Shown here: one piece after another, positions 11,161 to 43,681 of the stretch
Numbering within the stretch: position 1 is the first letter of the stretch
How the letters are laid out: every line of letters starts with the position of its first letter
IMG/VR virus record: IMGVR_UViG_3300024346_000130
Coordinates: 1 to 45,602 of that record
Direction: 5' to 3' (one strand)
Length of the DNA: 45,602 bases
Source: a virus
Translations under genes and position numbers: made by a program
The notes under the pieces: model-generated
Told to the model about the DNA's origin: nothing
What the model saw: the letters and a program-made list of their open reading frames with translations, nothing else
Databases searched by the model: none

Positions 11161-12012
11161 CTACATTTTTGTTTTATCAGTCTTAGTGTAATACACGTTG
11201 ACATTTTCTTCTCCTTTGTCGTCTAAGTATTTTTTTACGTTGTCGACATTAGCCTTATCATCATCAGAAAATCCAATCATCGGGACAAAATTATTTTTGA
11301 TGTCATTTTCTAACTCCATCGTAACTGCCAATTCTTCAGATAAAGAATTAACGTGTTTAATAAATAATTCTAATGCCTTAATTTTTTCTTCTTCAGGGTT
11401 AGCAGCACTACCCGCTCCGTGTGAAACAGGATGAAATCTACATAAGTCTAAATATTCTTGAAATAATTCTTCACCATCCCCGTCTATAACCCCTTTATAT
11501 TTCTTAAGTGACTCTACACACGATTCGAATGATAAACCACCCTTACCGTCTTTAACAATAGCCTCTACACCCTCTCTTAATGTCTCAGGGTTATGTCCTC
11601 TTGCCGTGATAATAGAAAATATTGAACCTCCGTTAATACATTCTATAAAATCATTCCATGAAGGACCTGTTTTAGCAATCATAGCGTCTTTAACAAATTG
11701 GTCATTTCCATCTACACCGAAATTTCTAAAAGGATTTTCAGCAAAACCAACTATAGTATGTCCTTTGTAGTCAAAATCTTCTTTTCCTATCTGTCCTCTA
11801 TACTCAGCAAAATCTGCAGTACCCATACCTATTTCTTGGTCTCCAAAACTTTTCACCATAATTTCAGTCGGCATATACATTAGGTTATCATCCCAATCAA
11901 ATGCGTAATATTTAAAATCAGGTAAACCCTCTTCGTTAAAACCTTCAGATACCTCAACACTCATGATTTCCATAAGTCTTTTAATTTCTGATTCTATTAA
12001 TGTTTGTTTCAT
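11161..12012 (-). CDS. HAD-superfamily phosphatase-like protein with possible packaging leader
   Basis: 283 aa. HAD motifs are visible. Motif I is F-D-W-D-D-N-L at about residues 38-44 (nucleophile and acid aspartates). Motif II is S-I-I-T-A-R-G-H-N near 135, with the conserved Thr. Motif IV is G-F-S-D-D-D-K near 252. A Lys for motif III probably lies in the helical part between them. The N-terminus MKQTLIESEIKRLM resembles the leaders of four other proteins in this window, ending in an [IL]-x-E site. It sits between tube and sheath genes, where T4 has no such gene. TATATATAAT abuts the start. The substrate is unknown; a nucleotide or nucleic-acid 3'-phosphatase is possible. The stop is TAG. 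Confidence 0.6.
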   Translation of the reverse strand: MKQTLIESEIKRLMEIMSVEVSEGFNEEGLPDFKYYAFDWDDNLMYMPTEIMVKSFGDQEIGMGTADFAEYRGQIGKEDFDYKGHTIVGFAENPFRNFGVDGNDQFVKDAMIAKTGPSWNDFIECINGGSIFSIITARGHNPETLREGVEAIVKDGKGGLSFESCVESLKKYKGVIDGDGEELFQEYLDLCRFHPVSHGAGSAANPEEEKIKALELFIKHVNSLSEELAVTMELENDIKNNFVPMIGFSDDDKANVDNVKKYLDDKGEENVNVYYTKTDKTKM

Positions 12013-12027
12013 ATATTATATATACAA

Positions 12028-12047
12028 AGGGGAGGAAACCCTCCCCT
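12028..12047 (-). terminator. Terminator after tail sheath gene
   Basis: Read on the minus strand, AGGGGAGG and CCTCCCCT flank a GTTT loop. This GC-rich stem stands out in AT-rich DNA and is followed by TTTG. It begins 10 nt past the sheath stop and ends just before the start of the HAD-like gene. Confidence 0.7.
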
Positions 12048-12057
12048 CTATAGTTTT

Positions 12058-14865
12058 TTAAATGTTTTCAAAAGATGCTCCTGTTGGTGTTACTAAGAAT
12101 TCAATATCAATGAATTCAAGAGCTCTTGTTGGTTTAATGTATATCTTACCCGATAACTGATTTCTGTCCATATCTTCTGGTGAAGACGACAATACAACTT
12201 TAAATTCTGTTAAACCTCTTTCTCTTTTTATATTTTCTAAAATTGGGTTAACTAAACTTAAGAATTCGTTTCTTACAACTTCATCATTCTGTTCGAATAA
12301 TAATCTTACCGCCACGTTTGAAATAAGTTTTCTAGCTTGTAGTAATAATCTTCTTACGTTGATTCTGTCTAATGCCGATTCTCTAACTTGTAATGTTTTG
12401 TTACCGAAGATAATCGTACCTACGTCTGAGAATGTTGCTATTGGGTTAATTCTATTAACATATAACTCATCTCTTTCGTCTAATGTTAATTTCTTTTTCG
12501 CTTTGATTGCGTTTACTAAACCTCTTGTGTAACCCGCTGATGCGAACCATGGATATGCCACGTTATCTGTTAACGCGATGTTCTTTAATACCTCACCTGT
12601 TGGTGCCACGTATACCTGAACTGAATTTTCAGTATCTCTCACCTGAATCCAAGGCCAATATGTTGCTGAGTAGTTAGAATCAAAACCTATATCTTCAATG
12701 TCACCTACAATTTCATCTACTGATGACCTGTTTGGTGAATCAATTACATATAATGAATCCGCTCTTTCTTCTTCAATCATATCGATTGCTTCACCAACTA
12801 AAGATGAATTGTCAAAGAAGTTAAGACCTGGTGTTGAGAATAAGTTAATATCTACTGCTTCAGGGTTAGCGTATGTTCTAATACCGTCTAAGAACGCATA
12901 GTAATCAGAGTTACCAACGTAAGGGTCAAACCCTGCGTTCGCATATGGTGATTTACCTTTTATATATTGGTCACCGTTAGTTCTTTCTTTTCTAAAGATA
13001 TCAAATCCGTCAAAACCACCTACAGGTGCTATTGTGAATTTACAACCAACTAACTTTTCAAAGTTTCCTTCTGATAACTCAAAGTTTTCATTAGTTTTAA
13101 CAAACTCAACTCCGTTAGCTTGTGATGAAAGGTGGAAACCTTTAAGTAATTCAACACCTTGATAATCACCTGAAAATTCAAAGAATGACGGGTCAAAACC
13201 AACTGTGTTAGAAACACCTAAATATGTTTTTCTTACTTTATCTGAATTTACTACAATATCATTACCATCATTATCTATACCGATAACCTGTCCTGCAGTG
13301 TAGTATTCGTTTTTATAGTTAATACTTGCGTTAGAAGATGAAGCGAAGTTATAATCTTTAACCTCGTAACCTCTAAATCCTGATGGTACCGCGTCTATCG
13401 GTGCGTCATCAGATAATTCTAATATAATATAACTTGATTTTAATTCGTACTCACCATCAGATGTACCTACTTTTCTCGCTACGTAACCTGGTACGTCTGG
13501 ATTCATAGAACATCTTGAGAATTTTTCTAAAACGATTGGACTTGCATCCGTATCGAAGAAATCTCTAACAATGATATCGAACTCTTGTTTTTCAATTGAA
13601 ATGTTTACAAAAGAAATCTTAACCTCTCTTGCTGATGCGTCTCCGTCTGAAATCGTTGCGAATCTAAATAAGTTAGACACAAAACCACCTCTTACTTCAG
13701 AAACAACATATGGAGTATATGATGATGTATATTTCGACTTAAAGTCTCCACCCTCATTTACACTATCTAAAGTTCCTGTATATAATCCTTTAATTTTTCC
13801 TGTTGCGATTAACCAATTTAAATAATTGTCATAAACCTTATCAACATAAACAGGATAATCATCAGGGTTTTTATCAAACGCCGATTCACCAATCACTTTA
13901 GTTATAAATTTCTTAGATGATGGTGATAAGTTACACGTAAAACTGTGTACTCCTGCCGCTGATGTGAATGATAAATCAAAGTCAGCTAAAGCATTGTCGT
14001 TTACCACATCACTAGTAATCGTAATATTACTGTTTAATTTGAAGTTTAAATCGTCACCTGTATATTCCGCTCTTGAACGTAATATAGCAATTGTCTTATT
14101 ATGAAACTCTGAAAATCTTACGACATCTAATTCCATAACCACAATCTGTACTTTAATAACCCCCGCGTCGTCGAATTTACTTGCGTAAAATGCTAACCCG
14201 CTTTCATTTGTTCCTGTAAATTCTATTTGGTCTGCCCATTTAGAGTCTGACATTGGATAAACAACTTTATCCGTATCATCAACACCAATAGCGTTCCAAT
14301 CGAATGTATTATAATATGGACCCATAACCATTACCTTATCTTCTGATAGGTTTAAGTTTACGAAATCTAAGAAACTTGTAGTAACACCTGCATTTGATTC
14401 AAATTCAGTATTAAGATAATCTGTTTCTAATTGACCTAAACCAGCGATATCTAAAGAACCACTATTCAGTTCAATAACAAAATCCGCTTTAAGTGAATTT
14501 GATTGTCCTATTGTTGTTGTATTAACACCAGCGATAGTTTTTATCGAATGTGCCGAACCTGCATCATAACCTGAATAACCCAATACTCTTGTCACAAATA
14601 ATTGTGATGATTGAGATAGGTATGATTTTGCATAATACGGAAGTGGGTATTTTAATGTTTCACCCATCTTTTCAGGTGAAGAACCACCGAACATTGTTCT
14701 GAATCCATTATAACCCGAAACCAATACTGGTTCAAATGCGGGACCTTTTTTTGTTTCACCTACTAAACCTAAAGTAGATACACCAACGCTTTGAGAAACA
14801 AAACTCAAGTCTTTTTCTGATGTGAATACTCCTGGTGAGACGAAAACTCTGTTAGAATTTGCCAT
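12058..14865 (-). CDS. gp18: Contractile tail sheath protein gp18
   Basis: 935 aa, against 659 aa for T4 gp18. The N-terminus has the sheath signature: V-F-V-S-P-G-V-F-T-S-E-K-D, then G-L-V-G-E-T-K-K-G-P-A-F-E-P. The C-terminal domain is the conserved core, with Y-P-W-F-A-S-A-G-Y-T-R-G, then I-N-P-I-A-T-F-S-D-V-G-T-I-I-F-G-N-K-T-L and R-I-N-V-R-R-L-L. These parts polymerise around the tube and contract. The extra length of about 270 residues lies in the middle, as surface domains. A late-promoter-like ATATTTATA lies 41 nt upstream and a GC-rich terminator follows, so it is probably its own transcription unit. Confidence 0.92.
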   Translation of the reverse strand: MANSNRVFVSPGVFTSEKDLSFVSQSVGVSTLGLVGETKKGPAFEPVLVSGYNGFRTMFGGSSPEKMGETLKYPLPYYAKSYLSQSSQLFVTRVLGYSGYDAGSAHSIKTIAGVNTTTIGQSNSLKADFVIELNSGSLDIAGLGQLETDYLNTEFESNAGVTTSFLDFVNLNLSEDKVMVMGPYYNTFDWNAIGVDDTDKVVYPMSDSKWADQIEFTGTNESGLAFYASKFDDAGVIKVQIVVMELDVVRFSEFHNKTIAILRSRAEYTGDDLNFKLNSNITITSDVVNDNALADFDLSFTSAAGVHSFTCNLSPSSKKFITKVIGESAFDKNPDDYPVYVDKVYDNYLNWLIATGKIKGLYTGTLDSVNEGGDFKSKYTSSYTPYVVSEVRGGFVSNLFRFATISDGDASAREVKISFVNISIEKQEFDIIVRDFFDTDASPIVLEKFSRCSMNPDVPGYVARKVGTSDGEYELKSSYIILELSDDAPIDAVPSGFRGYEVKDYNFASSSNASINYKNEYYTAGQVIGIDNDGNDIVVNSDKVRKTYLGVSNTVGFDPSFFEFSGDYQGVELLKGFHLSSQANGVEFVKTNENFELSEGNFEKLVGCKFTIAPVGGFDGFDIFRKERTNGDQYIKGKSPYANAGFDPYVGNSDYYAFLDGIRTYANPEAVDINLFSTPGLNFFDNSSLVGEAIDMIEEERADSLYVIDSPNRSSVDEIVGDIEDIGFDSNYSATYWPWIQVRDTENSVQVYVAPTGEVLKNIALTDNVAYPWFASAGYTRGLVNAIKAKKKLTLDERDELYVNRINPIATFSDVGTIIFGNKTLQVRESALDRINVRRLLLQARKLISNVAVRLLFEQNDEVVRNEFLSLVNPILENIKRERGLTEFKVVLSSSPEDMDRNQLSGKIYIKPTRALEFIDIEFLVTPTGASFENI

Positions 14866-14906
14866 TATTTGAATATTTTTTTAATTGTAATTTATTTCTT
14901 TACTAC

Positions 14907-14915
14907 TATAAATAT
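14907..14915 (-). promoter_or_regulatory. Candidate late promoter of tail sheath gene
   Basis: Minus-strand ATATTTATA followed by GTAGTAAAG, 41 nt before the sheath ATG. Confidence 0.55.
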
Positions 14916-14950
14916 TCAGTATTTTTATAAAAGACTTTTTATTAAACCGA

Positions 14951-14959
14951 ATATTTATT
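14951..14959 (+). promoter_or_regulatory. Candidate late-type promoter of RHH-like gene
   Basis: ATATTTATT lies upstream of a 20-bp palindrome and 41 nt before the ATG at 15001. Confidence 0.4.
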
Positions 14960-14962
14960 AAG

Positions 14963-14982
14963 AGTATGAATATATTCATACT
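14963..14982 (+). promoter_or_regulatory. Perfect 20-bp palindrome with a third half-site: probable operator
   Basis: The half-site AGTATGAATA is followed by its exact reverse complement with no spacer. After a T-run the word TTCATACT recurs at 14986-14993, giving three half-sites just before a gene for a predicted ribbon-helix-helix protein. That layout fits autoregulation. The T-run after the palindrome means a terminator hairpin is the alternative. Confidence 0.45.
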
Positions 14983-15000
14983 TTTTTCATACTACAGATA

Positions 15001-15162
15001 ATGAACGACAAAAGGGTTAAAAACTTAAAAATCTCGGAATACCACCATAAACTACTAAAAGACCACTGTAATAAAGGGGGTCTTAAGATGTTTAACTTCG
15101 TAGAAAAACTAATTGAGGACAATTGTAAAGTGAAAAGAGATATCTACGGAGACGAAATATAA
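15001..15162 (+). CDS. Small ribbon-helix-helix-like DNA-binding protein
   Basis: 53 aa, not among the longer open frames. The N-terminal V-K-N-L-K-I-S-E-Y strand is followed by a helix (HHKLLKDHC), a turn with K-G-G-L-K-M and a second helix F-N-F-V-E-K-L-I-E-D-N-C. This is the beta-alpha-alpha layout of Arc/MetJ-type ribbon-helix-helix proteins, which bind palindromes as dimers. It stands alone on the plus strand inside a minus-strand tail block, with a perfect palindrome in front. It converges on the gp15-like gene, 11 nt between stops. The likely role is a regulator, perhaps of itself and the divergent sheath gene. Fold assignment rests on sequence pattern only. Confidence 0.55.
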   Translation: MNDKRVKNLKISEYHHKLLKDHCNKGGLKMFNFVEKLIEDNCKVKRDIYGDEI

Positions 15163-15173
15163 TGTCGTAATTA

Positions 15174-16445
15174 TTATAACTCCGAAGTTAGATAAACCAA
15201 ACTCATTTTGGTTGTAGGTGTTGTTACAGGTGGAAGTTCATTGACCGTGATACTAAACTGACCTTTACTAAACGTATAATAGTCAGATTCAATTTGTAAT
15301 AAACCACCAACATCTAATAGTATCATATCGTATATTGGAAATTCTAATGGGTATGTCATCTGTCCATCAACAAATTCAATTGTCTCTTTTTTAAGATTTA
15401 AAATACTCCCCTCCATAGAACTCATAGTATTATCAAAGGTATAAACAATCCTCAACACACTGTCTAATGGTGGTGGGGTAGTAAATATAATATTAGAACT
15501 ATTACCGTTGTGTAAATAATCAACATCTTTAACCAACACTAAACCATTTAATTCCACATAGAACAGATTGTTTATTTTCTTTTGTGTTTTATATGTCGTT
15601 GTGACACCATCACTTAAAAACTTTTCTGTAGTAACTTCAACATTGTTTTTAATTACTTTTGTCATAACACCCGAAGAAGGTCCTTTAACATCCGCAATTA
15701 GTTCCGTCATTATAAGTGTTCTATCAATAGCTGGTGTTACCTCAAACTCTTCGTCATCAATTAAAAATCCCTGTAATTGTATTGTATATGATTGTTGGTA
15801 GTATCTTCTACCCTCTAATGAATCAATTTGTGATTGGTCAGAAATACCTTCTAACACTAAAGGAATATAATGTCCCTTAACATTAGTATAGGATTGTCTC
15901 GATGAGAACTTCTGCATTATTTTTTTATTAAACCTGTTAAGTTCTCTCATTCTATTACAAACAACAACAATGTCAAAAGACATATCAACAGGTATTGGTT
16001 GTGGTATCTTATAGATATCAGCACCGATTCTATTTCCATTCCATGTTGGTATTCTCCTATAAAAAAACGATTGTCTATCAGGTATTGTATATTGTAGTGA
16101 TGGGTTGGTTCCAAAAGGAACTTCTGGTTTTCTAATTACAACAACAAAAGGTAACTCGATATTACCATCTTCGTCTGTAAAAGGAAATGTGTTCGACATC
16201 TCTGCCCATCTTTGTATTGTTAAAATTCTTTCAATAAAATTAATAGTATTACCGTCACCCGTTTGAAATAATAAATTGTTCTTAACAAACTCCAACATAC
16301 CAAAATCTAAGTCTTCGTGTAAAATAGACTCAGGAAGGTTAGTGTCTTGATTTGTAATCTCTTCAAGAAGTTCACGTCTTCTTTCTAATAATTCCTTATT
16401 AGAATATACGTTTATATCGTTTTTATATTTCTTAGGTAATCCCAT
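15174..16445 (-). CDS. gp15-like tail sheath stabiliser / connector protein
   Basis: 423 aa from MGLPKKYKND at 16445. The frame extends to 16472, but this ATG lies one base after the upstream stop and has GGAG 7 nt before it. The core (residues about 105-240: PFVVVIRKPEVP, then IPQPIPVDMSFDIVVVCNRM, then RYYQQSYTIQLQGFLI) resembles T4/cyanophage gp15, where a P-Q-P-I-P-x-D-M-x-F-x-I-x-V strand precedes a helix. gp15 caps the tail and joins it to the neck. After residue 260 there is extra beta-rich sequence with two similar segments (FYVELNGLVLVKDVDY and DMILLDVGGLLQIESDYY), a likely duplicated decoration domain. Pairing with the gp14-like gene supports a neck-tail role. Confidence 0.55.
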   Translation of the reverse strand: MGLPKKYKNDINVYSNKELLERRRELLEEITNQDTNLPESILHEDLDFGMLEFVKNNLLFQTGDGNTINFIERILTIQRWAEMSNTFPFTDEDGNIELPFVVVIRKPEVPFGTNPSLQYTIPDRQSFFYRRIPTWNGNRIGADIYKIPQPIPVDMSFDIVVVCNRMRELNRFNKKIMQKFSSRQSYTNVKGHYIPLVLEGISDQSQIDSLEGRRYYQQSYTIQLQGFLIDDEEFEVTPAIDRTLIMTELIADVKGPSSGVMTKVIKNNVEVTTEKFLSDGVTTTYKTQKKINNLFYVELNGLVLVKDVDYLHNGNSSNIIFTTPPPLDSVLRIVYTFDNTMSSMEGSILNLKKETIEFVDGQMTYPLEFPIYDMILLDVGGLLQIESDYYTFSKGQFSITVNELPPVTTPTTKMSLVYLTSEL

Positions 16446-16446
16446 A

Positions 16447-16959
16447 TTATACTCCTTTAAATTGGTCACCACTTACAGGTGTACAAAGTAATGTTCTGTA
16501 AAAAGATTTGAATCCTCCGATTGTGTGTTTATTATCTGAAACCACTTTACCGTCATTGGCAACCTCATAATATCTTACTCTTGTCTCTGACTCATAGAAT
16601 CCGATGTAATCCCCATAGGACACATCAATACCCTTCTCTTCTAAATGGTGTTTATAGACCGATATAGTCATATTACCTGGCTCTAAATACCTACCCAATC
16701 CATTTGAATATGTTTTGTTGTCAGGTGCGCCAATAAGAACCATCCCTTTAAATTCGGTCGGTGGTAAGAACTTAATCTCCCCTTTACCCGATTCACCATA
16801 TACGTCATCAACAGTTTTAGACCTATCAACTCTAAATAAAACTAAATCAAAGTTTATGTCTCCGTGTAACCATTCCTCACCCATAGATAAATCTAAGTCA
16901 AAGTCGTCATACGAAAAAAACTTGTTTAATCTATTAATCGGTTGTTTCTTTTTACTCAT
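16447..16959 (-). CDS. gp14-like neck/head-tail connector protein
   Basis: 170 aa. Key stretches are L-F-R-V-D-R-S-K-T-V-D-D-V-Y-G-E-S, then G-D-Y-I-G-F-Y-E-S-E-T-R-V-R-Y-Y-E-V, then L-L-C-T-P at the C-terminus. The order (a 'D-x-x-Y-G-E' helix, a small beta-barrel, a G-D-Y/L-I strand followed by an E-V strand) recalls T4-like gp14 and other head-tail connector proteins. It is followed by the gp15-like gene with the junction TAATATG, so the two are coupled. A late-promoter-like ATATTTATT sits only 4 nt before the ATG. The assignment leans on context and is uncertain; another neck component is possible. Confidence 0.45.
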   Translation of the reverse strand: MSKKKQPINRLNKFFSYDDFDLDLSMGEEWLHGDINFDLVLFRVDRSKTVDDVYGESGKGEIKFLPPTEFKGMVLIGAPDNKTYSNGLGRYLEPGNMTISVYKHHLEEKGIDVSYGDYIGFYESETRVRYYEVANDGKVVSDNKHTIGGFKSFYRTLLCTPVSGDQFKGV

Positions 16960-16962
16960 ACT

Positions 16963-16971
16963 AATAAATAT
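16963..16971 (-). promoter_or_regulatory. Candidate late promoter with almost no leader
   Basis: Minus-strand ATATTTATT then AGT and the ATG at 16959. If functional, transcription would begin at or next to the start codon (leaderless mRNA). Confidence 0.4.
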
Positions 16972-17021
16972 CTCTTGATTAAGTTTAGTTTAATGTTTAT
17001 TATTGTGTATAATGCGCAATT

Positions 17022-18800: not shown

Positions 18801-19409
18801 ATGGATTTAAGAAAACGTATTACGGAAGAAATAACAGAGGTTAAATATAATCAATTTCTTGTTTTTGTCTCTAGAGTGTTATCATCTAAATATCAAAATT
18901 TTAGTGATGACCCCGAGAAAATAGTATCATCGATTAAAAAATACTCAAGACAGTTTGGGTTTCAATGGCAAGAGGAAGAATTACTTAACAAAGCGATTGC
19001 TAGCTTTCAATTATCCCCAACGTTAAACGTAAATGACGAAAATTTCATTAAAGAACCAAAACTTAAACAATTTGAGGTAGAAGCTGAAGTTATGTGGAAT
19101 GGGTATGGTACAGATTATTATGAAGGTATCATTGAAGCTTATACCGAAGATGACGTAGAAAAAAGAATTACTGAAGATTCAGAGTGGAACGAATTAGAAC
19201 TAATAGAAAGAGATATTAGAAATTACGAGGCCAGCGAAGTGGAGATTCAGAATATGAACGAAAAAGAGATTACACCTCTAAGAGAATCTAAAAAAAGTAA
19301 GACTACAGATGAGTTTTCAATGTATGAAGACTACTACAAAAACCTATCCCCCGATTCCTTTAGTATTAAAAGAAAAGGGGACGAGATTATTATTAAACTT
19401 AAGAAGTAA
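18801..19409 (+). CDS. Hypothetical protein with leader-like N-terminus
   Basis: 202 aa. I do not recognise a domain. The N-terminus MDLRKRITEEITE has a basic start followed by I-T-E, matching the leader pattern of four other proteins here. Residues about 90-140 (FEVEAEVMWNGYGTDYYEGIIEAYTEDD) form a beta-alpha unit like small acidic phage proteins, and the rest is strongly charged. It follows the helicase by 30 nt with a candidate late promoter in the gap, and its 3' end overlaps the convergent zinc-protein gene by 11 nt. A virion-internal protein is possible but unproven. Confidence 0.5.
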   Translation: MDLRKRITEEITEVKYNQFLVFVSRVLSSKYQNFSDDPEKIVSSIKKYSRQFGFQWQEEELLNKAIASFQLSPTLNVNDENFIKEPKLKQFEVEAEVMWNGYGTDYYEGIIEAYTEDDVEKRITEDSEWNELELIERDIRNYEASEVEIQNMNEKEITPLRESKKSKTTDEFSMYEDYYKNLSPDSFSIKRKGDEIIIKLKK

Positions 19410-20231: not shown

Positions 20232-20276
20232 CTTATTTTAATATGATTTGAAATATGGGGTTTAATGTATTTACGG

Positions 20277-20297: not shown

Positions 20298-21140
20298 ATG
20301 AAAAAATTGAGTATGTTAATAACAGAAAGTATATCACCAATTAGTGTGGCTCAAACACTTATGATAGAGTTCGGTAAAGGATATAATAGTGAATGGAGAG
20401 TCTTTTTAAATAAAGTTTTAGAACACGTCTATAAACCTCTTAATATGTGGTACGGTGAGAAAGACAACGAAGGTCGTTATAAGGTAGGAGTATGGACCAA
20501 TGATGGTGTGTGGCACCCAATATTAAATAGGGTTAACACAAATTATATTGTTATGGGTAAGTTACTACAGGAATCAGGGATTAATCTAAATCAGCCGACC
20601 GACTTAATATACGCATCTTTTATACAGTATTTTAGAAAAAATTATCGTTCTATTGTCTCTGAAGATGGGGCTCTTTATAATTCAATAGTCTTACCAACGA
20701 TTGGTAAAACATCTGCTAGAGGTGAAAAAACTGAAGAAGAAAGTATTAAACTACTTAAGGATTGTCCTCTATTTAATGGGTTAACTATTGAAAAATTAGG
20801 AGGGTCTGGTGTTGGTGCCGATATGATTGATGGTGTAGACGCTATTACTTATAAAAACACTCCTGATGATATAACACACACAATCCAAATAAAACCTTTC
20901 ACATTCATTAAAAAATCTGATTATGGTCATTTTATTAATGGGGTGGGACAGGCTAAAGAATATAGAACTAATTTTATTGTATTTGTTAAGGGGTCTTCTT
21001 ATATAGTTGCCGACTCTAAAAAATGTAAACCACTAAAAGGTTCGTATTTTGTCTCAAAGGGTGGGATACTATTTCAAAAAGGAGTGTCACAACTGAATGA
21101 AGATTTTAGTATTATGATGAACTTACTTAAGTTTAAATAA
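20298..21140 (+). CDS. PD-(D/E)XK nuclease-like protein with possible packaging leader
   Basis: 280 aa from MKKLSMLITES; the frame opens 11 codons earlier, but that part overlaps the promoter-like TATTTATA. Residues about 140-245 have a nuclease-like layout: a helix with G-E-K-T-E-E-E-S-I-K-L-L, G-S-G-V-G-A-D-M-I-D-G-V-D-A-I with an acidic residue on a strand, then H-T-I-Q-I-K-P-F, the (E/Q)-x-K strand of PD-(D/E)XK enzymes. The Q in place of D/E in the last motif is known in some family members. The N-terminal leader with L-I-T-E matches that of four other proteins. It lies 29 nt before the neck gene. The nuclease call is tentative. Confidence 0.45.
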   Translation: MKKLSMLITESISPISVAQTLMIEFGKGYNSEWRVFLNKVLEHVYKPLNMWYGEKDNEGRYKVGVWTNDGVWHPILNRVNTNYIVMGKLLQESGINLNQPTDLIYASFIQYFRKNYRSIVSEDGALYNSIVLPTIGKTSARGEKTEEESIKLLKDCPLFNGLTIEKLGGSGVGADMIDGVDAITYKNTPDDITHTIQIKPFTFIKKSDYGHFINGVGQAKEYRTNFIVFVKGSSYIVADSKKCKPLKGSYFVSKGGILFQKGVSQLNEDFSIMMNLLKFK

Positions 21141-28025: not shown

Positions 28026-28412
28026 ATGTCAAACGCAAACGAAAAACTAACAGAAATCGCAAATCAACAAAGAACTGCTTTGATGACCTCAAACACCTAC
28101 GATGGTACTGAGAGTGATGAGTATAGTTCTACCCACCCTAACGCATTATCAGATGGTGATGAAGCAGGTAAAGGGTTAACTAACACAACAGGTAGTTCGA
28201 CTGATATACTAACAAGACAAACATTAGTTAATAGTAACGAATATAACGGAGCCAATTCTTACGGTTCTTCACACCCTAACGCATTGTCAGATGGTGATGA
28301 AGCGGGTAAAGGACAAACTAATACTATTGGTGGAACGACTGATATACTAACAAGAGGTAATAATACATCGTCTAACCAATACGGACCATCAAACGAATAT
28401 CCTAATTTCTAA
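28026..28412 (+). CDS. Low-complexity virion-type protein with two tandem repeats
   Basis: 128 aa, rich in Asn, Ser, Thr and Gly, and acidic. Two units of about 33 residues repeat with a 47-codon period, each with H-P-N-A-L-S-D-G-D-E-A-G-K-G, then T-N-T and S/G-x-T-D-I-L-T-R. The repeat is nearly identical at DNA level in its central 40 nt, so it is a recent or conserved duplication. Such short, unstructured repeat proteins are likely head decoration or internal proteins; no family is recognised. The stop overlaps the next start (TAATG). Confidence 0.5.
   Translation: MSNANEKLTEIANQQRTALMTSNTYDGTESDEYSSTHPNALSDGDEAGKGLTNTTGSSTDILTRQTLVNSNEYNGANSYGSSHPNALSDGDEAGKGQTNTIGGTTDILTRGNNTSSNQYGPSNEYPNF
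28125..28355 (+). repeat. Two tandem 141-nt-spaced coding repeats
   Basis: Copies at about 28125-28217 and 28265-28355 encode H-P-N-A-L-S-D-G-D-E-A-G-K-G plus T-D-I-L-T-R. They differ at only a few bases in the core. Confidence 0.7.
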
Positions 28413-28789
28413 TGAAACTAATCCAGTCACTTAAATCCTTAATTATTAAAGAGGCCGTTAGTCGTGATACTATCGCTGACGCAATACGTAACAAAAAAGT
28501 TATTACTATTTTTTACGCGGGTGACCAAACGATTAATAAAGGGTATAGAGAAATCGAACCTGTTGCCTTTGGTCCTCATAACGTATCGGGAAACGTTGTA
28601 TTAAGGGCTTGGCAAGTTAGAGGGTCGAGTGATACTCCTGAAAACCAACCAGGGTGGAGGTTATTTAGATTAGATAAGATAAATAATAGTTCACCAACTA
28701 ACGACACTTTTGAAACACCTAGACCGTATTTTAACCCAAAAGGGGATAAGCACATGTCTCAAGTTTTTGAGATTGCAAAGTTTGACTAA
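28412..28789 (+). CDS. Stand-alone WYL-domain protein with possible packaging leader
   Basis: 125 aa. Residues about 22-97 follow the WYL domain pattern: I-A-D-A-I-R-N-K-K-V-I-T-I-F-Y-A, then Y-R-E-I-E-P-V-A-F-G, then V-V-L-R-A-W-Q-V-R and W-R-L-F-R-L-D-K-I. WYL domains sense ligands in transcription and defence regulators, normally with a helix-turn-helix; here only the WYL part plus a short leader is present (M-K-L-I-Q-S-L-K-S-L-I-I-K-E). The leader ends in I-K-E, like four others. It overlaps the repeat-protein gene by one base. A ligand-binding modulator delivered with the virion is possible; that is speculation. Confidence 0.6.
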   Translation: MKLIQSLKSLIIKEAVSRDTIADAIRNKKVITIFYAGDQTINKGYREIEPVAFGPHNVSGNVVLRAWQVRGSSDTPENQPGWRLFRLDKINNSSPTNDTFETPRPYFNPKGDKHMSQVFEIAKFD

Positions 28790-34173: not shown

Positions 34174-35232
34174 ATGGATAAAGTAAAAGTAATTAACGAG
34201 GCTATCGAACGTCTCGACAAATTAGAGTCGAACGTTTATGTGTTCGTACAAGATGCTAAAGGTAATGCTAAAGCATCAATCAAACATTCTTACGATTTAG
34301 TAAGAGTATTAAATGAGAATGAGTTCAACGCTCATATCTTAGTTGAAAATAAAGACTATGAAGGGGTTTCTTCTTGGTTACCATTAGAGTATGATGAAAC
34401 ACCTGTTGTTTCAATAGAAGAGGGTAGTCTTCAAGTTAGACCTGATGACTTAGTTATCATACCTGAGTTATTTGCTCACGTAATGGAACAAATTGCGGAT
34501 ATGCCATGTAATAAAGTAGTTCTATGTCAGTCATACGATTATTTATTTGAAACATTAAAACCAGGTGCTACTTGGAATTCCTTTGGGTTTAATAAGGTTA
34601 TAACTACAAGTTTAGACCAAAAACAATATCTTAATGACTTATTTAAGAAACTGAATATCGATGTTATTACACCGTTTATTTCTGAATTGTTTACAAAGTC
34701 AGATAAACCACAAAAACCAATTATTTCTATACACACACGTGACCAAAGAGATACTATGAAATTAATCAAATCTTTCTATGTGAAGTACCCACAATTTAAA
34801 TGGGTAACATTTAGAGATATGAGAGGATTAACTCAAGAAGAATTCGCGACAACATTAAGAGAGTCGTGTTTATCTGTTTGGGTTGATGACGTTTCAGGTT
34901 ATGGAACATTCCCATTAGAGTCTATGAAATCAGGAGTACCTGTTATTGGTAAAATACCAACACTTAAACCTGATTGGATGACAGAGGATAATGGTATTTG
35001 GACTATAGATTCAAATCAAATTGTGGATTTAGTTGCGTCTGTATTTAAGGGATGGTTAGAAGATAGAATACCATCAGACTTATACGATGAGATGGATTCA
35101 ACGGTAAGTAAATTAACTTATGAAACATTCACAAAAGAAACGTTAAGTGTTTTTACAAACATAACAAAAAAGAGAAAAGAACAATTAGAGTTCACAGTCG
35201 ATAAATTTAAAGAATTAGAAGAAAATGATTAA
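34174..35232 (+). CDS. GT-B glycosyltransferase
   Basis: 352 aa. A long N-terminal lobe (V-Y-V-F-V-Q-D-A-K-G-N-A-K-A-S) and a C-terminal lobe with I-I-S-I-H-T-R-D-Q-R, then S-V-W-V-D-D-V-S-G-Y-G-T-F-P-L-E-S-M-K-S-G-V-P-V-I-G, the donor-binding E-x-M-x-x-G-x-P-V motif of GT4-like enzymes. It probably transfers a sugar to a phage structure or DNA. It overlaps the next glycosyltransferase by 8 nt, so the two act together. The C-terminus is a charged helix. Acceptor and donor cannot be read from sequence. Confidence 0.75.
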   Translation: MDKVKVINEAIERLDKLESNVYVFVQDAKGNAKASIKHSYDLVRVLNENEFNAHILVENKDYEGVSSWLPLEYDETPVVSIEEGSLQVRPDDLVIIPELFAHVMEQIADMPCNKVVLCQSYDYLFETLKPGATWNSFGFNKVITTSLDQKQYLNDLFKKLNIDVITPFISELFTKSDKPQKPIISIHTRDQRDTMKLIKSFYVKYPQFKWVTFRDMRGLTQEEFATTLRESCLSVWVDDVSGYGTFPLESMKSGVPVIGKIPTLKPDWMTEDNGIWTIDSNQIVDLVASVFKGWLEDRIPSDLYDEMDSTVSKLTYETFTKETLSVFTNITKKRKEQLEFTVDKFKELEEND

Positions 35233-36711: not shown

Positions 36712-36713
36712 AC

Positions 36714-36721
36714 TATTTATT
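36714..36721 (+). promoter_or_regulatory. Candidate late-type promoter, near-leaderless
   Basis: TATTTATT followed by TAGT and ATG at 36726; weak match, 4 nt from the start. Confidence 0.3.
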
Positions 36722-36725
36722 TAGT

Positions 36726-37100
36726 ATGGGAAGAACAACTAAAAAAGAAATTAATTTTTCACAAAAAAGTTTAATGGCACTTCTACAGGAGATATATAAC
36801 GAAACTGTAGAGCAGAGAAATACCGCAATTAGAATACAAAATAAGATGTTAGGGTTCATGAAAGGACCTGAAGACTTAACCTTATTGGGTCCTATCATAA
36901 AAGAACAACAAAAGATATTAGATAGTGTTTTAGAGAAAAAACTATCATTGGCAAAACTACAACAGGTTATCATACAAAAATCATCAGAAGGTCGAGAAGA
37001 CATTGGTGGTTCTTTAAGTGATGACGATAAAGAAATGTTAAAGGATTTGGTTAATGGTTTAGGTAATGATACACCATCTGACGATAATTTTAATATGTAA
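36726..37100 (+). CDS. Hypothetical helical virion-associated protein
   Basis: 124 aa, almost all alpha-helical (S-L-M-A-L-L-Q-E-I-Y-N-E-T-V-E-Q-R-N and D-S-V-L-E-K-K-L-S-L-A-K-L-Q-Q), ending in an acidic S-D-D-D-K-E and N-D-T-P-S-D-D-N tail. No family recognised. The stop overlaps the next ATG by one base (TAATG), so it is coupled with the 615-aa structural gene; it may act as its chaperone or assembly partner. Confidence 0.5.
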   Translation: MGRTTKKEINFSQKSLMALLQEIYNETVEQRNTAIRIQNKMLGFMKGPEDLTLLGPIIKEQQKILDSVLEKKLSLAKLQQVIIQKSSEGREDIGGSLSDDDKEMLKDLVNGLGNDTPSDDNFNM

Positions 37101-38947
37101 TGGGATTAAAGACGGAACAAAACAAATTAGATAAAGGTATTGACTCAATAAAGTTGGTACTACAGTCAATGTCGGACATGAAGAAAATTGACCTTCAGTC
37201 TGTTGGTTCCGCATATTTAGATACAAATAAGTTAAAGAAAAAATTATTAGGTGACGGTAGTGGTAAATCAGTCAATACTGATTTTATCGGTAAATTAGTT
37301 AATACATTACTTCAAAGTTCTGGTGGTGGACCTGACAAAGTCAAAACATTCGTTAAAAAAATCATTAAGAAAGTTTCTACCGATTCACCAAAAATAACTA
37401 AGATTGTTATTGAAGAATTGTTTAGAGCGATTAATTGTGAAACTGATTTTTCATTGACGGGTATTGAGATAAACCTATCTCCTGAAGAAATAGACTTCTT
37501 TGATTTATTAAAAGTCTCTCCTGAAGGAATGCCAGGTAGAGTAATGTACGAAAAAGGTGATATAGATAACGAATTGTATCCTTTACCACTTAATAAAATG
37601 TTATACGACGTTACGATAAGTAATGACCTAAATTCCCCTAAAACATTTACCTCGGCAAACGGTAAAGAAATGTTTGACCTTAGTTTTGACGACTTCACTC
37701 AAGAATATAATTTAAAATTTAAGGACATTAACGTAACCGATTTTGTCTCTCACTATTACTCATCTTTTGAACTATTCAACACAAAAGACTTAATGTCTGA
37801 CTTAATGGACCAACTATTTGGTGTGGTTTCAATTGATGTCTCAACCAAAAGGGTAAAGTCATTCGCAGAATTAAACAAGATGATGCAAATTTTGGCTAGT
37901 TTGTGTAGTGACTTTTACGAGCAGGATGCGTTAATACAAGAAAGTTTAATTGATGGTTTGTCAACACAAGACGAAGATTTGTCTTATGCGTTTGACGATG
38001 AAGATACAAGGCAAATTGAAGAGGAGTTTAATTATAAAATTAATAAAATATATAAATTAGTTAATTGTGGGAATTTTGAGGGTGAGATGAATACTGATTT
38101 ATTAATCGATTCTTTACTCGATTTAGATTCAGATAATATTTCTGAGTCTGAGGTATTAGAAGGGTTATTACAAAATATCGGTAGTGGATTTGTAGAACAA
38201 TCAGGATTTGATGTTCCTACAATAAATCTTAACCTTAATTTAGACATATTCAAACAATTACCAACAACTATAATGGGTAAAGTGCTGGGACCAAAAACGG
38301 TTCTACCATTTATAATATTAACTAAAGCGATTGATGAGGCTAAAGGTAAGGCGAAGGACGTAAAGGAATTTGCTGAAAATAACAAACGTTTTATGACTCG
38401 AGTTGGTAAAAGAGTGTTTGATATGTATAAAAAAGAACTGATGGATGAAATTAAAAAAGAGTTAACTCAAATAGTTTCTATGGTTCTTAAAGAAATTGCT
38501 AAACAACAATTAAGAGGGAGATATGCTATTATACTCGCCCTATTATCTATGTTACACAAATTTATAACCACAACAGACTTTAGTACGTGTATAGGTATCA
38601 TTCAAGGACTATTATCTTTACTTAACCTTAAATCAGGTATACCTTTAGGGGTACCGTTTCCACTTCTTTATGGTGCATACGCAAGGGAAGGGGCAAACTC
38701 AACAAGGGCTTACAACAATGCGATTCAATTCATGGAAAAACAAGGTGTGAGTCTTGGTAGTTTACCGGACGGTTCACCAAATAAACATATACTATTAGTA
38801 GATTCTATTATGAAAGGAGCAATGAAAGAACTAGGTGAGAATGGGGTTAATCAATTTGTGTCATTACCGGCAACTGGAGCTCATCCATTAGGTCCTGTAG
38901 TAACACCATTTGTAACGGGTAAGTCAGTACCACTAACATCATATTAA
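37100..38947 (+). CDS. Structural/tail protein with hydrophobic C-terminal region
   Basis: 615 aa. The N-terminal third has K-L-V-N-T-L-L-Q-S-S-G-G-G and a basic helix F-V-K-K-I-I-K-K-V. Residues about 470-545 are hydrophobic (Y-A-I-I-L-A-L-L-S-M-L, then I-I-Q-G-L-L-S-L-L and L-G-V-P-F-P-L-L-Y-G-A-Y-A), possibly membrane-active. It ends in a Gly/Pro/Thr-rich stretch. No family is recognised. It is the second gene of a tail cluster with an OB-hub gene and a peptidase gene; a tail-hub, baseplate or membrane-penetration role is inferred. Confidence 0.5.
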   Translation: MGLKTEQNKLDKGIDSIKLVLQSMSDMKKIDLQSVGSAYLDTNKLKKKLLGDGSGKSVNTDFIGKLVNTLLQSSGGGPDKVKTFVKKIIKKVSTDSPKITKIVIEELFRAINCETDFSLTGIEINLSPEEIDFFDLLKVSPEGMPGRVMYEKGDIDNELYPLPLNKMLYDVTISNDLNSPKTFTSANGKEMFDLSFDDFTQEYNLKFKDINVTDFVSHYYSSFELFNTKDLMSDLMDQLFGVVSIDVSTKRVKSFAELNKMMQILASLCSDFYEQDALIQESLIDGLSTQDEDLSYAFDDEDTRQIEEEFNYKINKIYKLVNCGNFEGEMNTDLLIDSLLDLDSDNISESEVLEGLLQNIGSGFVEQSGFDVPTINLNLNLDIFKQLPTTIMGKVLGPKTVLPFIILTKAIDEAKGKAKDVKEFAENNKRFMTRVGKRVFDMYKKELMDEIKKELTQIVSMVLKEIAKQQLRGRYAIILALLSMLHKFITTTDFSTCIGIIQGLLSLLNLKSGIPLGVPFPLLYGAYAREGANSTRAYNNAIQFMEKQGVSLGSLPDGSPNKHILLVDSIMKGAMKELGENGVNQFVSLPATGAHPLGPVVTPFVTGKSVPLTSY

Positions 38948-39157
38948 ATGGATATAAAGATAATTTTAGAAATAGCAGAAAACGCATCGAAAAGGTCTAA
39001 TAAAGATTTAATCGAAGCGGCAACTATTTTATCAAAGGAATTTGAAGATACTAAGACATTAATGATTCAATTATCACACCATTTAGATAATGTGGAAAAC
39101 AGTTATTATCAAATCTCCGAAGAAGTTAAAAAAAGAAAAGGTATAACAGATGTCTAA
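38948..39157 (+). CDS. Small helical tail-cluster protein
   Basis: 69 aa, entirely helical and charged (L-I-E-A-A-T-I-L-S-K-E-F-E-D-T-K-T-L). It starts directly after the preceding TAA and overlaps the OB-hub start by 8 nt, so all three genes are coupled. A chaperone or connector is likely; no family recognised. Confidence 0.45.
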   Translation: MDIKIILEIAENASKRSNKDLIEAATILSKEFEDTKTLMIQLSHHLDNVENSYYQISEEVKKRKGITDV

Positions 39158-40661
39158 ACTCATTTTTAAGGGGGTTGTAAAAGACAATAAAGACCCGAAA
39201 TCGTTAGGTAGAATTAGAATCGACCCTGTTGAGTGGATTGTTTCTGATGAGGTTTATGTTACAGAGTATTCAGGAAAGTATTCAGAACAAAAAGACAGGT
39301 GGAACGCAGTATCTGACCCGTTTATGTTTGTGCCATTATTACCTAACCATATCAATATGGTTCCTAAGGTGGGTGAATCCGTTAATATATTATATACCGA
39401 TACCGACTCTAAATTTATAGATGGTTTCTATATACCAATGTCTATAGTCGACCAAGGATATCCAAACCCTTCAAGTGCGGAGCATATGATGTCACAATCA
39501 AAAGAGGGGTTAAAGTATAAGAAAGCAAAAGACATTTATAAATCAACAGGAGAGTTTGTTAAAAAAACTTATGACGGAGCAATTCCTAAAACTGAAGATT
39601 TTGCAATATCGAGTAGATTAAACTCAGATATTCTTTGGACTCAAAAAGCAATCGTGATTAGGGCTGGAAAAATTAAAGACGATGAGGTTGTCTCAAAAAG
39701 AGAACCCATTAGAGACTCTAATCCTGCTATGATTCAAGTATCTAAATTTGATACAACGACGACAATAAGTGAGGGTAAAGAAATCACCTCTAAAGTGAAT
39801 CAATTTGTACACACTGAAGTATTAATTGAATACCTTATAGATGACCTTAATTGTGATGGGAATTGTACTTCGACTCTTTATGTGTATAAATTAGCGGCAC
39901 AAAAAGAAATAACAGAAACGTTATACTTTAATCAAACAACTGAAATTGAAAACGATAAAAAAGAATTGTTATTTTCTACTATCGTTAATGGTGATGATTT
40001 AGAAGATTTATCTTTTAATATCAGACATGAAATTAAACAGATAATAAATCGTGGATTAACAGGGTTAAGTTCTTTAGAGAACTACATCAAACACCCGTCA
40101 AATGTTGACCCACAAAAAATGACATCAATATTTCCATTATATTTCAGGAATGTTCCGACACAATATGACGTTGAAAAAACCAACGATGTTTTTAATGATA
40201 AGATATTAAAAAATATACATATTAAAACTAGGAAAGGGTTTGGTCTTTTATTCAGTAATGAAGAAGATAATACGCCTGAGAAGGAGATAAAAATAAAAGA
40301 GACTATCGTTAAAAACTCTGATAAACCCAGTAAAAACGTTGTGGTATTATCAGATAAGAATTACATACTCGCTTACGGTAATAATATTCCAACATCTAAA
40401 AAAGGGATTAACTTCTCTAAAGTGTCTAACTACGAAATTAGTCAGGATGAAATAATTAATAATATAGAACCTGAAACATATGCGTTAGTAAGGGGTGAAC
40501 AATTACACGAACTTTTAGATATAATTTATCTCTACTTAACAACTCACGTACATAACCCTGCTGAACCGCCCGTTGTTTTTCCAAATATAAAATTAGACAT
40601 AGAGGAAAAATTTCAGAACTTTAAACAGAATATCCTTTCTAATAAAATTAGAATTAACTAA
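39150..40661 (+). CDS. gp5-like baseplate hub protein with OB-fold, no lysozyme
   Basis: 503 aa. The N-terminal domain (residues 1-100) has the gp5/VgrG OB pattern: F-K-G-V-V-K-D-N-K-D-P-K-S-L-G-R-I-R-I, then P-L-L-P and V-G-E-S-V-N-I-L-Y, D-G-F-Y-I-P. T4 gp5 has this OB fold followed by a lysozyme domain; here the remainder is beta-rich with no glycosidase motif. The hub would form the central spike base, and the cell-wall cutting role may have passed to the M23 peptidase encoded 1.4 kb downstream. It overlaps the small helical gene by 8 nt. OB domain recognition is fairly confident. Confidence 0.62.
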   Translation: MSKLIFKGVVKDNKDPKSLGRIRIDPVEWIVSDEVYVTEYSGKYSEQKDRWNAVSDPFMFVPLLPNHINMVPKVGESVNILYTDTDSKFIDGFYIPMSIVDQGYPNPSSAEHMMSQSKEGLKYKKAKDIYKSTGEFVKKTYDGAIPKTEDFAISSRLNSDILWTQKAIVIRAGKIKDDEVVSKREPIRDSNPAMIQVSKFDTTTTISEGKEITSKVNQFVHTEVLIEYLIDDLNCDGNCTSTLYVYKLAAQKEITETLYFNQTTEIENDKKELLFSTIVNGDDLEDLSFNIRHEIKQIINRGLTGLSSLENYIKHPSNVDPQKMTSIFPLYFRNVPTQYDVEKTNDVFNDKILKNIHIKTRKGFGLLFSNEEDNTPEKEIKIKETIVKNSDKPSKNVVVLSDKNYILAYGNNIPTSKKGINFSKVSNYEISQDEIINNIEPETYALVRGEQLHELLDIIYLYLTTHVHNPAEPPVVFPNIKLDIEEKFQNFKQNILSNKIRIN

Positions 40662-40668
40662 TTACTGG

Positions 40669-40677
40669 ATATTTATA
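40669..40677 (+). promoter_or_regulatory. Candidate late promoter
   Basis: ATATTTATA followed by AATAAAAC, 15 nt before the ATG at 40693. Confidence 0.55.
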
Positions 40678-40692
40678 AATAAAACATTTGTA

Positions 40693-42063
40693 ATGTCTAT
40701 ATTTAAATCTTATTTCAGTAAGAACAACACAATCATAAGTGATTCGTACACTAACACGGCAAAGAACCCTGTTAGTGAATTATTTTATGGTGGGTTTCAC
40801 ACTAGATTCCTATTACAAATTGATTTGTCAGAATTAATCCACAAAATTACTGATGGGTATATCAATACAAATTCAATTGAAAAACACATATTAAAACTAA
40901 CTAACACTATTAACCCTACAGAAAATTCGTATTTTAATGAAATTACGAGTCTTAATTCTAAAAGGGCAACATCTTTCGATTTAATAGTGTTTAAAGTAAA
41001 TCAAGAATGGGATGAGGGTGTTGGTTATGATTATATTAACACTTCTAACCAATTTCCATTACAAAGTACTCACTCTGACACTTCATCTAATTGGTTTAGT
41101 GCGACTAATCTTAATGATTGGACTCAGGCGGGTGTGAATGAAGGTGAAATCCTTTCAACACAACATTTTGATAATGGTAATGAAAATATAGAATTAGATG
41201 TTACTGATTATATCAATGACATATTAAACGGTACTGAAACACATTACGGATTAGGGATATCTTTTGACCTTCCTTACGAAGCAATCAATACGTTACAGAT
41301 ATATCGTAGTGTTGCATTTTTTACTAAGTACACTCAAACATTCTTTGAACCTTACTTAGAAACTACATTTAATGACCACTTTATTGACCACAGAAATGAC
41401 TTCTATACGGGAGTCGTTAGAAATTTAATATTATATGTAAATCAAGGTAACGAACCAACAAATTTAGATACTGAACCTACGGTAGATATTATGAACGGAG
41501 ACGAAGTATTACTTTCAGATTTACAATCAGAACATGTTAGTAAAGGAATATATAAAGTATCATTCACCGTTGACCCACAGTCTTGCCCTACCCCACTTAT
41601 TTTAAATGATGTGTGGAAAGGAGTTTCAATAGACGGGTATAGTCTTTCTGAGATTAATCAAGAATTCACATTAAGACCGTCTTCGGAACTATTTAAGATT
41701 GGAACCGACGAATTAAACCCTATAGAGTATAGTTACTCTTTTACTGGTTTAAAAAGAGACGAGAAAATCGTTAGAGGAGATATTAGAAAGGTTTATGTGG
41801 ATGTTAAAGTCCCATTTACATATGACGATAGAGTACAAATAGACAACTTAAAATATAGAATTTATGTTAAAGAAGGTAATACGTCTATAGATGTGATACC
41901 ATTCACAGACGTAAATAGGGCATACAATTCAAATTATTTCTTATTAGATACTTCTATGTTAATCCCAAATAAGGAATACCATATGGATTTACAATTAGAA
42001 ACAAACAGAGAAGTTAATACCTACAGAAAGGAAATTAGTTTTTACGTGATTAGTGAAAAATAA
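40693..42063 (+). CDS. Beta-rich baseplate or fibre structural protein
   Basis: 456 aa, beta-rich. N-terminal F-H-T-R-F-L-L-Q-I-D-L-S-E-L resembles the R-x-L-L-x-F-D-L-S pattern of DNRLRE-type virion and cell-surface proteins. Later come W-D-E-G-V-G-Y-D-Y, Q-H-F-D-N-G-N-E-N-I-E-L-D-V-T-D-Y-I-N and F-F-E-P-Y-L-E-T. Such segments recur in large T4-like phages, where they are annotated as virion structural. A late promoter lies directly before it and the peptidase gene follows within 4 nt. Its role could be a baseplate wedge or tail-fibre connector. Confidence 0.5.
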   Translation: MSIFKSYFSKNNTIISDSYTNTAKNPVSELFYGGFHTRFLLQIDLSELIHKITDGYINTNSIEKHILKLTNTINPTENSYFNEITSLNSKRATSFDLIVFKVNQEWDEGVGYDYINTSNQFPLQSTHSDTSSNWFSATNLNDWTQAGVNEGEILSTQHFDNGNENIELDVTDYINDILNGTETHYGLGISFDLPYEAINTLQIYRSVAFFTKYTQTFFEPYLETTFNDHFIDHRNDFYTGVVRNLILYVNQGNEPTNLDTEPTVDIMNGDEVLLSDLQSEHVSKGIYKVSFTVDPQSCPTPLILNDVWKGVSIDGYSLSEINQEFTLRPSSELFKIGTDELNPIEYSYSFTGLKRDEKIVRGDIRKVYVDVKVPFTYDDRVQIDNLKYRIYVKEGNTSIDVIPFTDVNRAYNSNYFLLDTSMLIPNKEYHMDLQLETNREVNTYRKEISFYVISEK

Positions 42064-42067
42064 TATT

Positions 42068-43681
42068 ATGAAAAAAAAGATATACATCAAAGAATCAGGT
42101 TTACTTGATTTTATTACAGACACATTAGGAGATGCAATTCCACAATTAGCGGCTACGGTTGATGGACCTGATTTATTGGTTACGATTCCCGCATTGGCAA
42201 AAAACATTTTTGAACTAAAACGTAATAACAAAAAATTTGATGAGTATATAACATCTAAACCTGAATTTGACGAAGAATCAATTAAAGAGTTATCAGAATA
42301 TGAAGATATATTTAAAAGGGATTTAATCGATGTCGTACAAAGAGTTATTGAATCGTTACCTGGTTCAGGTATTGGTTCCATTACTTCTTTTAGTGTTGGG
42401 TTTTTAGAGGATTTAATATTAGAAAAGTTTATAGAAAAGATGATTGATTTCAAAACTAATCATCTATCTAATATGCCGTCTATCCCATTATTAAATGATA
42501 CAATATCTGAAAGTCTTAATCATTTAGAAACTATTAATAAGTTACAGGAAGATTTTGAAGAATCGTCTAAAGAGTTATCTGAAGTCACAATATTAAATCC
42601 TGTTAAATCAACAAAGGTTACGGGTAAATTTAAAGAACCTAGAGGTGGTGGTACAAGAACACATTACGGAGTCGATTTGGCATTGCCGTCGGGTAGTAAC
42701 ATAATATCTCCTTTAGATGGTGTTATGATTAAGGACACTGGATATAATAATAATGCTTGTGGTGGTACAATGAAGATTCAACATGGAGGTAATATTACAA
42801 CTCGTTATTGTCACGTTAAGAAGATAAACTATTTAAAACTTGGTACTCCTGTCAAAAGAGGTCAGGTTATTGGTTTGTCAGGTGGTGGTACAAATGACCC
42901 ACACGCAGGTCGTTCTACAGGTCCTCACTTACATTTCGAAATGAAAAAGAATGGTAAGTTAGTAGACCCTATGAAATACATCAACAAAGATGAAGGTGTC
43001 GAATTTACCGAAGAAGATTGGGTAAATAGTGGTTTTGATAAAGACAATTTTTCAAGTCTTGTATGGTCAGACAATCAAACTACCGATGTTAAAGACGCAA
43101 CACCTGAAGAGTTGGCGAAATTTAGAAAACTAATGAGTACCGTTTTTAAAGGTATGGCTAATGACTTAAAAGAAAGTTCTAATGAGTTACAGTTTCATCT
43201 AAGTAACAACCTTTTAATTACTGAAAACATATTTAGACATGGTAGTCCGAAATACTTTAACCTAATTAACGAATCTCGTGAACTTTATAATAAAGGAGTT
43301 GGTGAATGGTCTGAAGAAGAAATTGAATTATTAGAATCTGACTGTGGTAAGTTTTTCATATATGAGGGTGAGAGATTACCTTTTGATTTCCCTATGATAA
43401 CTGAATCAGAATATCAAGGTAAAGACGTTGATTTAAACAAACCTAAATCGGGAGGTTCTAAGAAGTGGTATGTTTATGTTAAAAACCCTAAAACGGGTAA
43501 AGTTAAAAAGATAAGTTACGGTTCTCCTGATATGTCAGCCAAATGGAATGACCCCGTAGCTCGTAAATCATTCGCTGCTAGACATAGATGTGCTGAGAAG
43601 AAAGACAAAACCAAAGCTGGTTATTGGGCTTGTAGAGCACACAAAGATTTCGGTAAGAACGTTTCAGGTAGATTCTGGTAA
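42068..43681 (+). CDS. M23 zinc endopeptidase, virion-associated, with basic C-terminal module
   Basis: 537 aa from MKKKIYIKESG, 4 nt after the previous stop. A start at 42053 would add five residues and overlap the previous gene. The M23 (lysostaphin-type) core has the metal ligands H-Y-G-V-D (His199, Asp203) and H-L-H-F-E (287-291), plus G-x-P-V-K-R-G-Q-V-I-G. It cleaves peptide cross-links of peptidoglycan. The leader ends in I-K-E, like four other proteins. Residues 455-537 form a lysine-rich module with V-K-N-P-K-T-G-K-V-K-K, R-H-R-C-A-E-K-K-D-K-T-K-A-G-Y-W-A-C-R-A-H and a final Trp, like small zinc-binding modules at the ends of other phage proteins. It probably replaces the T4 gp5 lysozyme role. 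Confidence 0.8.
   Translation: MKKKIYIKESGLLDFITDTLGDAIPQLAATVDGPDLLVTIPALAKNIFELKRNNKKFDEYITSKPEFDEESIKELSEYEDIFKRDLIDVVQRVIESLPGSGIGSITSFSVGFLEDLILEKFIEKMIDFKTNHLSNMPSIPLLNDTISESLNHLETINKLQEDFEESSKELSEVTILNPVKSTKVTGKFKEPRGGGTRTHYGVDLALPSGSNIISPLDGVMIKDTGYNNNACGGTMKIQHGGNITTRYCHVKKINYLKLGTPVKRGQVIGLSGGGTNDPHAGRSTGPHLHFEMKKNGKLVDPMKYINKDEGVEFTEEDWVNSGFDKDNFSSLVWSDNQTTDVKDATPEELAKFRKLMSTVFKGMANDLKESSNELQFHLSNNLLITENIFRHGSPKYFNLINESRELYNKGVGEWSEEEIELLESDCGKFFIYEGERLPFDFPMITESEYQGKDVDLNKPKSGGSKKWYVYVKNPKTGKVKKISYGSPDMSAKWNDPVARKSFAARHRCAEKKDKTKAGYWACRAHKDFGKNVSGRFW

Follow-up and report, generated by a model that had tools for sequence, protein, structure and literature searches.

The 45.6-kb window considered here, the whole of the viral record IMGVR_UViG_3300024346_000130 from IMG/VR, belongs to a divergent T4-like myovirus, a marine relative of phage T4, and encodes five proteins of unrelated bodies that begin with a short leader ending in [I/L/V]-x-E. 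These leaders are likely to be head-targeting propeptides of the T4 kind that represent a new sequence type, are removed by a gp21-type protease and are borne by a larger and more varied cargo than that of T4. The leader most likely loads unrelated enzymes into the head for delivery to the infected bacterium, and the capsid protease of the phage itself probably removes it. This reading builds on shared leaders, a conserved terminal [ILV]xE, the exchangeability of leaders, comparable sites inside proteins, and the gp21 gene that near-identical relatives carry, all of which are present in the genomes compared. The relevant parts of the five proteins, as defined by simple gene calls with predicted start sites, are as follows.

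11944..12012, minus strand: leader of the HAD-like protein, residues 1-23, MKQTLIESEIKRLMEIMSVEVSE then GF (E23 conservation, orthologue N-termini, helix model)
11161..11943, minus strand: HAD-like body with motifs DWDDN, TAR, K210 and GFSDDD (invariant residues, fold matches)
18801..18827, plus strand: leader of a 202-aa protein, MDLRKRITE then E (orthologue comparison)
20298..20327, plus strand: leader of the nuclease-like protein, MKKLSMLITE then S (orthologue comparison)
20328..21137, plus strand: PD-(D/E)XK-like nuclease body (invariant residues, fold matches)
28412..28453, plus strand: leader of a small WYL-domain protein, MKLIQSLKSLIIKE then A (orthologue comparison)
28454..28786, plus strand: WYL-domain body (Pfam PF13280, 22.4 bits for a cut-off of 21.8)
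42068..42094, plus strand: leader of the M23 protein, MKKKIYIKE then S (orthologue comparison)
42095..43405, plus strand: M23 peptidase part (PF01551, E 1e-23), up to a second predicted cleavage site, MITE446 then SEYQG
43406..43678, plus strand: basic C-terminal domain (phrog_7595), with predicted release by the second cut (homologue comparison)

An earlier, sequence-only reading had singled out these five N-termini, which are indeed present at 12012 (minus strand), 18801, 20298, 28412 and 42068 (plus strand). The starts at 20298 and 42068 are internal ATGs within slightly longer open reading frames (ORFs; ATG at 20265, GTG at 42053), the shorter versions being favoured by comparison with relatives. 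When the motif proposed in that reading is scored as a basic residue early in the protein and [IL]xE[SAEI] with the glutamate at positions 7-16, it is found in 7 of the 41 window proteins, compared with a mean of 0.97 in shuffles that preserve the composition of each N-terminus (0 of 2000 reaching 7) and with 0.9 at internal pseudo-starts. Over the window and ten related contigs it occurs in 84 of 929 protein clusters (21.7 in shuffles, 11.1 at internal pseudo-starts), and a scrambled version of the DNA pattern returned 16 stretches, compared with at least 120 for the real one. The terminal [I/L/V]-x-E is moreover retained in divergent orthologues of all five proteins, and the proposal of a common leader class ending in [IL]-x-E on unrelated bodies is borne out by both enrichment and orthologue conservation. 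The sequence-only reading had also warned of chance, which is contradicted overall by these two results; the warning holds for two of the seven window hits, at 34174 (glycosyltransferase-like) and 38948, which are judged to be chance occurrences because their orthologues lose the motif, and which act as built-in negative controls. A raw count of [ILVMF]xE that ignores position and P1' gives only a 1.3-1.5-fold excess, like that of other residues, and is too crude a test.

In an alignment of 16 orthologues of the HAD-like protein, E23 is nearly invariant and the remaining leader varies. All 29 distinct orthologue N-termini hold [LIVMF]xE ahead of the body, in leaders of roughly 7-27 residues whose sequences are largely unrelated; under the same rule, glutamate is alone in being found in all 29, the next residues being arginine (20) and lysine (15). 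The likely cut in this leader is therefore VSE23|GF, and not LIE7|S, as it is the sole site conserved across orthologues. Nor are the leaders uniformly basic, as had been supposed: they are amphipathic, with a net charge of about -3 to +3 among HAD leaders, and that of the window is predicted, at low confidence, as a helix (residues 2-24) separate from the body. In L294 and L345, an LTES-type leader (MKKYVITESQLNLVKSKLQE) immediately precedes the FDWDD body of a HAD homologue. On such comparisons HAD leaders are interchangeable, the same kind of body being found behind different leaders and the site being retained through complete leader turnover. Regarding the body itself, D39/D41, T136, K210 and D250-252 are invariant across the 16 orthologues and cover all four HAD motifs. 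The label 'HAD-like' rests on these motifs and on weak fold matches, the best in the PDB being Ceg4 and Lem4, two Legionella effectors of HAD type (E 0.009, probability 0.85), and a Pfam search gave no match.

The other leaders behave similarly when orthologues are compared. The site of the 18801 protein reads RITE|E in close relatives and RITE|Q or MISE|Q in distant orthologues (G004, G007), that of the M23 protein IVKE|S (L070) or KINE|D (L063) in relatives, and all 11 distinct orthologue N-termini of the WYL protein end in [LI]-x-E at the same place, followed by A, I, E, V, Q or D. Nuclease-like orthologues end their leader in LITE, LIME, LLTE or LLKE, and a distant paralogue of 335 aa in G004 is devoid of the glutamate. 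The WYL and M23 identities given earlier are confirmed by Pfam, and the 'nuclease-like' label rests on E146, D181, Q197 and K199, invariant in nine sequences, and on the best fold matches, which are nucleases of the PD-(D/E)XK class (I-Ssp6803I, probability 0.98, and archaeal Holliday junction resolvases) but are weak, none having an E below 0.001.

Sites of the same kind also occur inside proteins, so that start-codon or N-terminal composition effects offer no explanation for them. For example, the nuclease is fused in G004 and G007 behind an Fe/Mn superoxide dismutase (SOD; PF00081, PF02777), with a junction KIVKSIISE|GASAG in which SIISE|G falls exactly where the leader of the free nuclease ends. 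Such fusions are seen at L198:11969-13531 and L223:3637-5199, with a complete SOD domain and a gp21-like site at the junction, and a virion-carried SOD is possible. As for the M23 protein, most homologues of its C-terminal region hold hydrophobic-x-E|[ASG] ahead of the basic domain, those of two cultured phages included: Flavobacterium phage immuto, with ELDE|GEYRG, and Methylophilales phage Melnitz. As a side observation, this phrog_7595 domain (also at L492:1270-1827 and L494:1154-3106) has different partners, the M23 peptidase in the window and a cytidylyltransferase-like protein in Melnitz. The M23 gene adjoins that of the major capsid protein, inside which the window stops.

44127..45602, minus strand: gp23, the major capsid protein (truncated at its 5' end by the window edge)

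The gp23 of relatives carries YLINE|A near residue 60, and the T4 gp23 propeptide has 65 residues (PMC5694885); on this comparison, the position matches that of the T4 propeptide and the site is of the same kind as those of the leaders. Two genomes near-identical to the window, G015 (63.9 kb) and G016 (92.1 kb), extend beyond gp23, and there a gp21-type protease (PF03420), for which the sequence-only reading had advised looking, lies beside gp22 and gp23.

Leaders are furthermore shared far beyond the five named proteins. When N-terminal 36-mers of proteins with unrelated bodies are compared, 364 high-scoring pairs are obtained, whereas internal segments yield 78 such pairs and C-terminal ones 93. 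A hidden Markov model of one leader family, 'MKKIIxLTESxLxxIIKxVIxEQ', matches 66 N-termini, which belong to 58 unrelated clusters, with no hit among threefold decoys, and a second family, 'INEEEKNRILNLHESA...', comprises 14 N-termini in as many clusters; both often end in [IL]-x-E then Q. Hydrophobic-x-E|Q within residues 5-32 is observed 54.6 times for 15.7 expected (cluster-weighted), mostly with I or L at P3, and E|Q after a non-hydrophobic P3 is merely 1.2-fold enriched. A tblastn search with a short leader consensus gave no match, the query being probably too short to find any. Most tagged proteins have no Pfam match, the exceptions including PG_binding_1 (twice), TseH-like (twice), a C39-type peptidase and the L5 gp82 family. 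Judged by these domains, and with the M23, nuclease and HAD proteins of the window, the tagged set resembles a kit for takeover or for acting on the cell wall more than a collection of structural components.

How could such leaders work? By analogy with T4, from which core docking, cleavage, packaging and delivery are inferred, an unrelated enzyme would be attached to the scaffold core by its short helical leader while the prohead assembles, and the gp21-type protease would cut after [I/L/V]-x-E, thus freeing inside the head a mature enzyme that could leave it together with the DNA at ejection. In the M23 protein, a second cut would release the basic C-terminal domain.

Several observations weigh against this scheme or fail to help it. 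A column-conservation test over 98 core families gave no excess of glutamate, the leader being therefore confined to an accessory subset. Co-occurrence with gp21 is uninformative, as the gene is carried by 19 of 24 contigs of at least 50 kb with in-frame leaders, and likewise by both control contigs of at least 60 kb. A site matrix built from the gp23 and basic-domain sites discriminates N-termini weakly, being overfitted to 16 related sites. In bacterial homologues of the HAD-like protein (Kiritimatiellae and others), the basic leader is missing and a short extension, PY[VI]NEEV, with a variable glutamate, partly resembles the site; the contrast between phage and bacterial proteins is real but not absolute. 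Finally, the gene of the HAD-like protein is flanked by those of the tail sheath and tube (gp18/gp19) in six genomes, so that its position alone does not point to the head.

12058-14865: tail sheath gene

This location would also suit leaders acting as uncleaved docking or assembly tags for the virion, whether head, tail or baseplate, in which the glutamate would belong to a helix-capping docking motif. Such a role would agree with a predicted leader helix that stops near E23-24, and with residues common to leader families that reach well past [IL]xE. It is nevertheless unlikely, as otherwise unrelated leaders have a single constant, the [ILV]xE where they join the body, which fits a protease site, and as this site is also conserved at internal domain junctions and in gp23. 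Amphipathic N-terminal helices can bind membranes, and many of the tagged proteins are small accessory ORFs, which would be consistent with leaders that direct proteins to other destinations, such as the host membrane or a phage assembly site, and with no packaging at all; this is rather improbable, as it leaves the invariant terminal glutamate and the internal sites unexplained, and as genuine signal peptides in these genomes differ, ending in FSQ. Chance, through lysine- and isoleucine-rich starts in AT-rich DNA such as that of the window, would suffice for the two hits lost in orthologues and is otherwise hardly credible, being already contradicted by the shuffles, the scrambled DNA pattern and the glutamate common to all 29 HAD N-termini.

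Cleaved head-targeting propeptides, the reading preferred here, have known counterparts. In T4, the capsid targeting sequence (10-19 residues) is cut after glutamate and can carry foreign proteins into the head (PMC9026906; PMC5694885). For the internal protein IPIII, the first ten residues suffice for head entry and the leader is removed by gp21, and the targeting sequence has been suggested as the route by which T4-like phages acquire varied packaged proteins (PMC9026906). Like the propeptides of IPI, IPII, IPIII and Alt, the leaders described here are short, N-terminal, placed on unrelated bodies and ended by hydrophobic-x-E; a gp21-type protease and gp22/gp23 are likewise present (in the near-identical relatives), and the gp23 propeptide bears the same kind of site. 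The general layout, a lysine-containing start and hydrophobic-x-E, appears to be shared with T4 internal protein leaders, the comparison being one of layout. In contrast to T4, the leader types are LTES, HES and HAD-type, the tagged bodies are enzymes and cell-wall-active proteins, and where T4 tags a handful of proteins these phages seem to tag dozens, with dozens of clusters over ten contigs known here from sequence alone. In the giant phages SPN3US, phiKZ and 201phi2-1, the propeptides of packaged ejection proteins are cut after glutamate (A-x-E or S/A/G-x-E) during head maturation (PMC5694885). The predicted sites described here share the final glutamate, but several giant-phage propeptides exceed 100 residues and have a small P3, whereas the present leaders have 7-27 residues and mostly I, L or V at P3.

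The principle is thus already known from T4 and giant phages. As far as the literature searched shows, what is new concerns the leader families (a literature search aimed at the leader family found nothing), how many and how varied the tagged bodies are, the exchange of leaders on a given body, and the internal polyprotein sites. A wider proposal, on which we remain tentative and lean slightly towards doubt, is that widespread uncultured T4-like phages, probably infecting Bacteroidetes, rely on a modular N-terminal propeptide code, in which several leader types can replace one another, to fill the head with a large and variable set of enzymes (peptidoglycan hydrolases, TseH-like effectors, HAD phosphatases, nucleases, a SOD-nuclease polyprotein). 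Bacteroidetes hosts are suggested by the FSQ-ending signal peptides of the relatives. If the proposal is true, the set of proteins that an uncultured phage injects could be deduced from its genome sequence. In large environmental phages, the majority of genes have no role assigned to them; a cleavable packaging leader that can be recognised would allow many of these genes to be classed together as cargo of the head, delivered when infection begins, and would flag enzymes of host takeover and counter-defence. Such a leader would also make the T4 internal-protein principle a general and expandable loading system, and would provide new sequences with which laboratory T4-type systems could place proteins in phage heads.

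No close cultured relative of the window was found, only distant phages, with Flavobacterium phage immuto and Microcystis phage Mel-JY01 among the nearest. The cultured T4-like phages immuto (vB_FspM_immuto) and Melnitz encode comparable leaders, namely MKKVMGNLADLLLE|E ahead of an NT5C-type HAD body and MKKFSEIIE|A ahead of a cytidylyltransferase-like one, as well as the same basic C-terminal domain, but their leader families differ from those of the window. A search for published leader or virion-processing data on these two phages found none; immuto, which is cultured (host Flavobacterium sp. LMO8) and carries gp21 in addition to such leaders, offers a ready laboratory test system. In immuto (L490-L493), two proteins carry MKKQILSEQF[KR]RMQxLAGIITES and two others FLxENKLTxNxxLxxE|G.

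Some further observations concern the distribution of leaders and bodies. Homologues of the HAD-like protein with about 30% identity occur on metagenome-assembled contigs of Kiritimatiellae and Verrucomicrobia (L419-L486), most of them carrying KYYIFDWDDNILHMPT. Genes with leaders also occur in runs; at 4358-10854 of G001 (L227:4358-10854), seven of them, most being direct neighbours, resemble a cargo island. In the near-identical relative G016, a TseH-like domain (a type VI effector family) follows an LTES-type leader at L197:4229-5407. A further leader type, MKKITESQLxxRVxxLREYM, is found in L333, L328 and L289 on proteins that also end with a leader-like motif, DELSRIVSLV..R, and tags at both ends of these proteins are possible.

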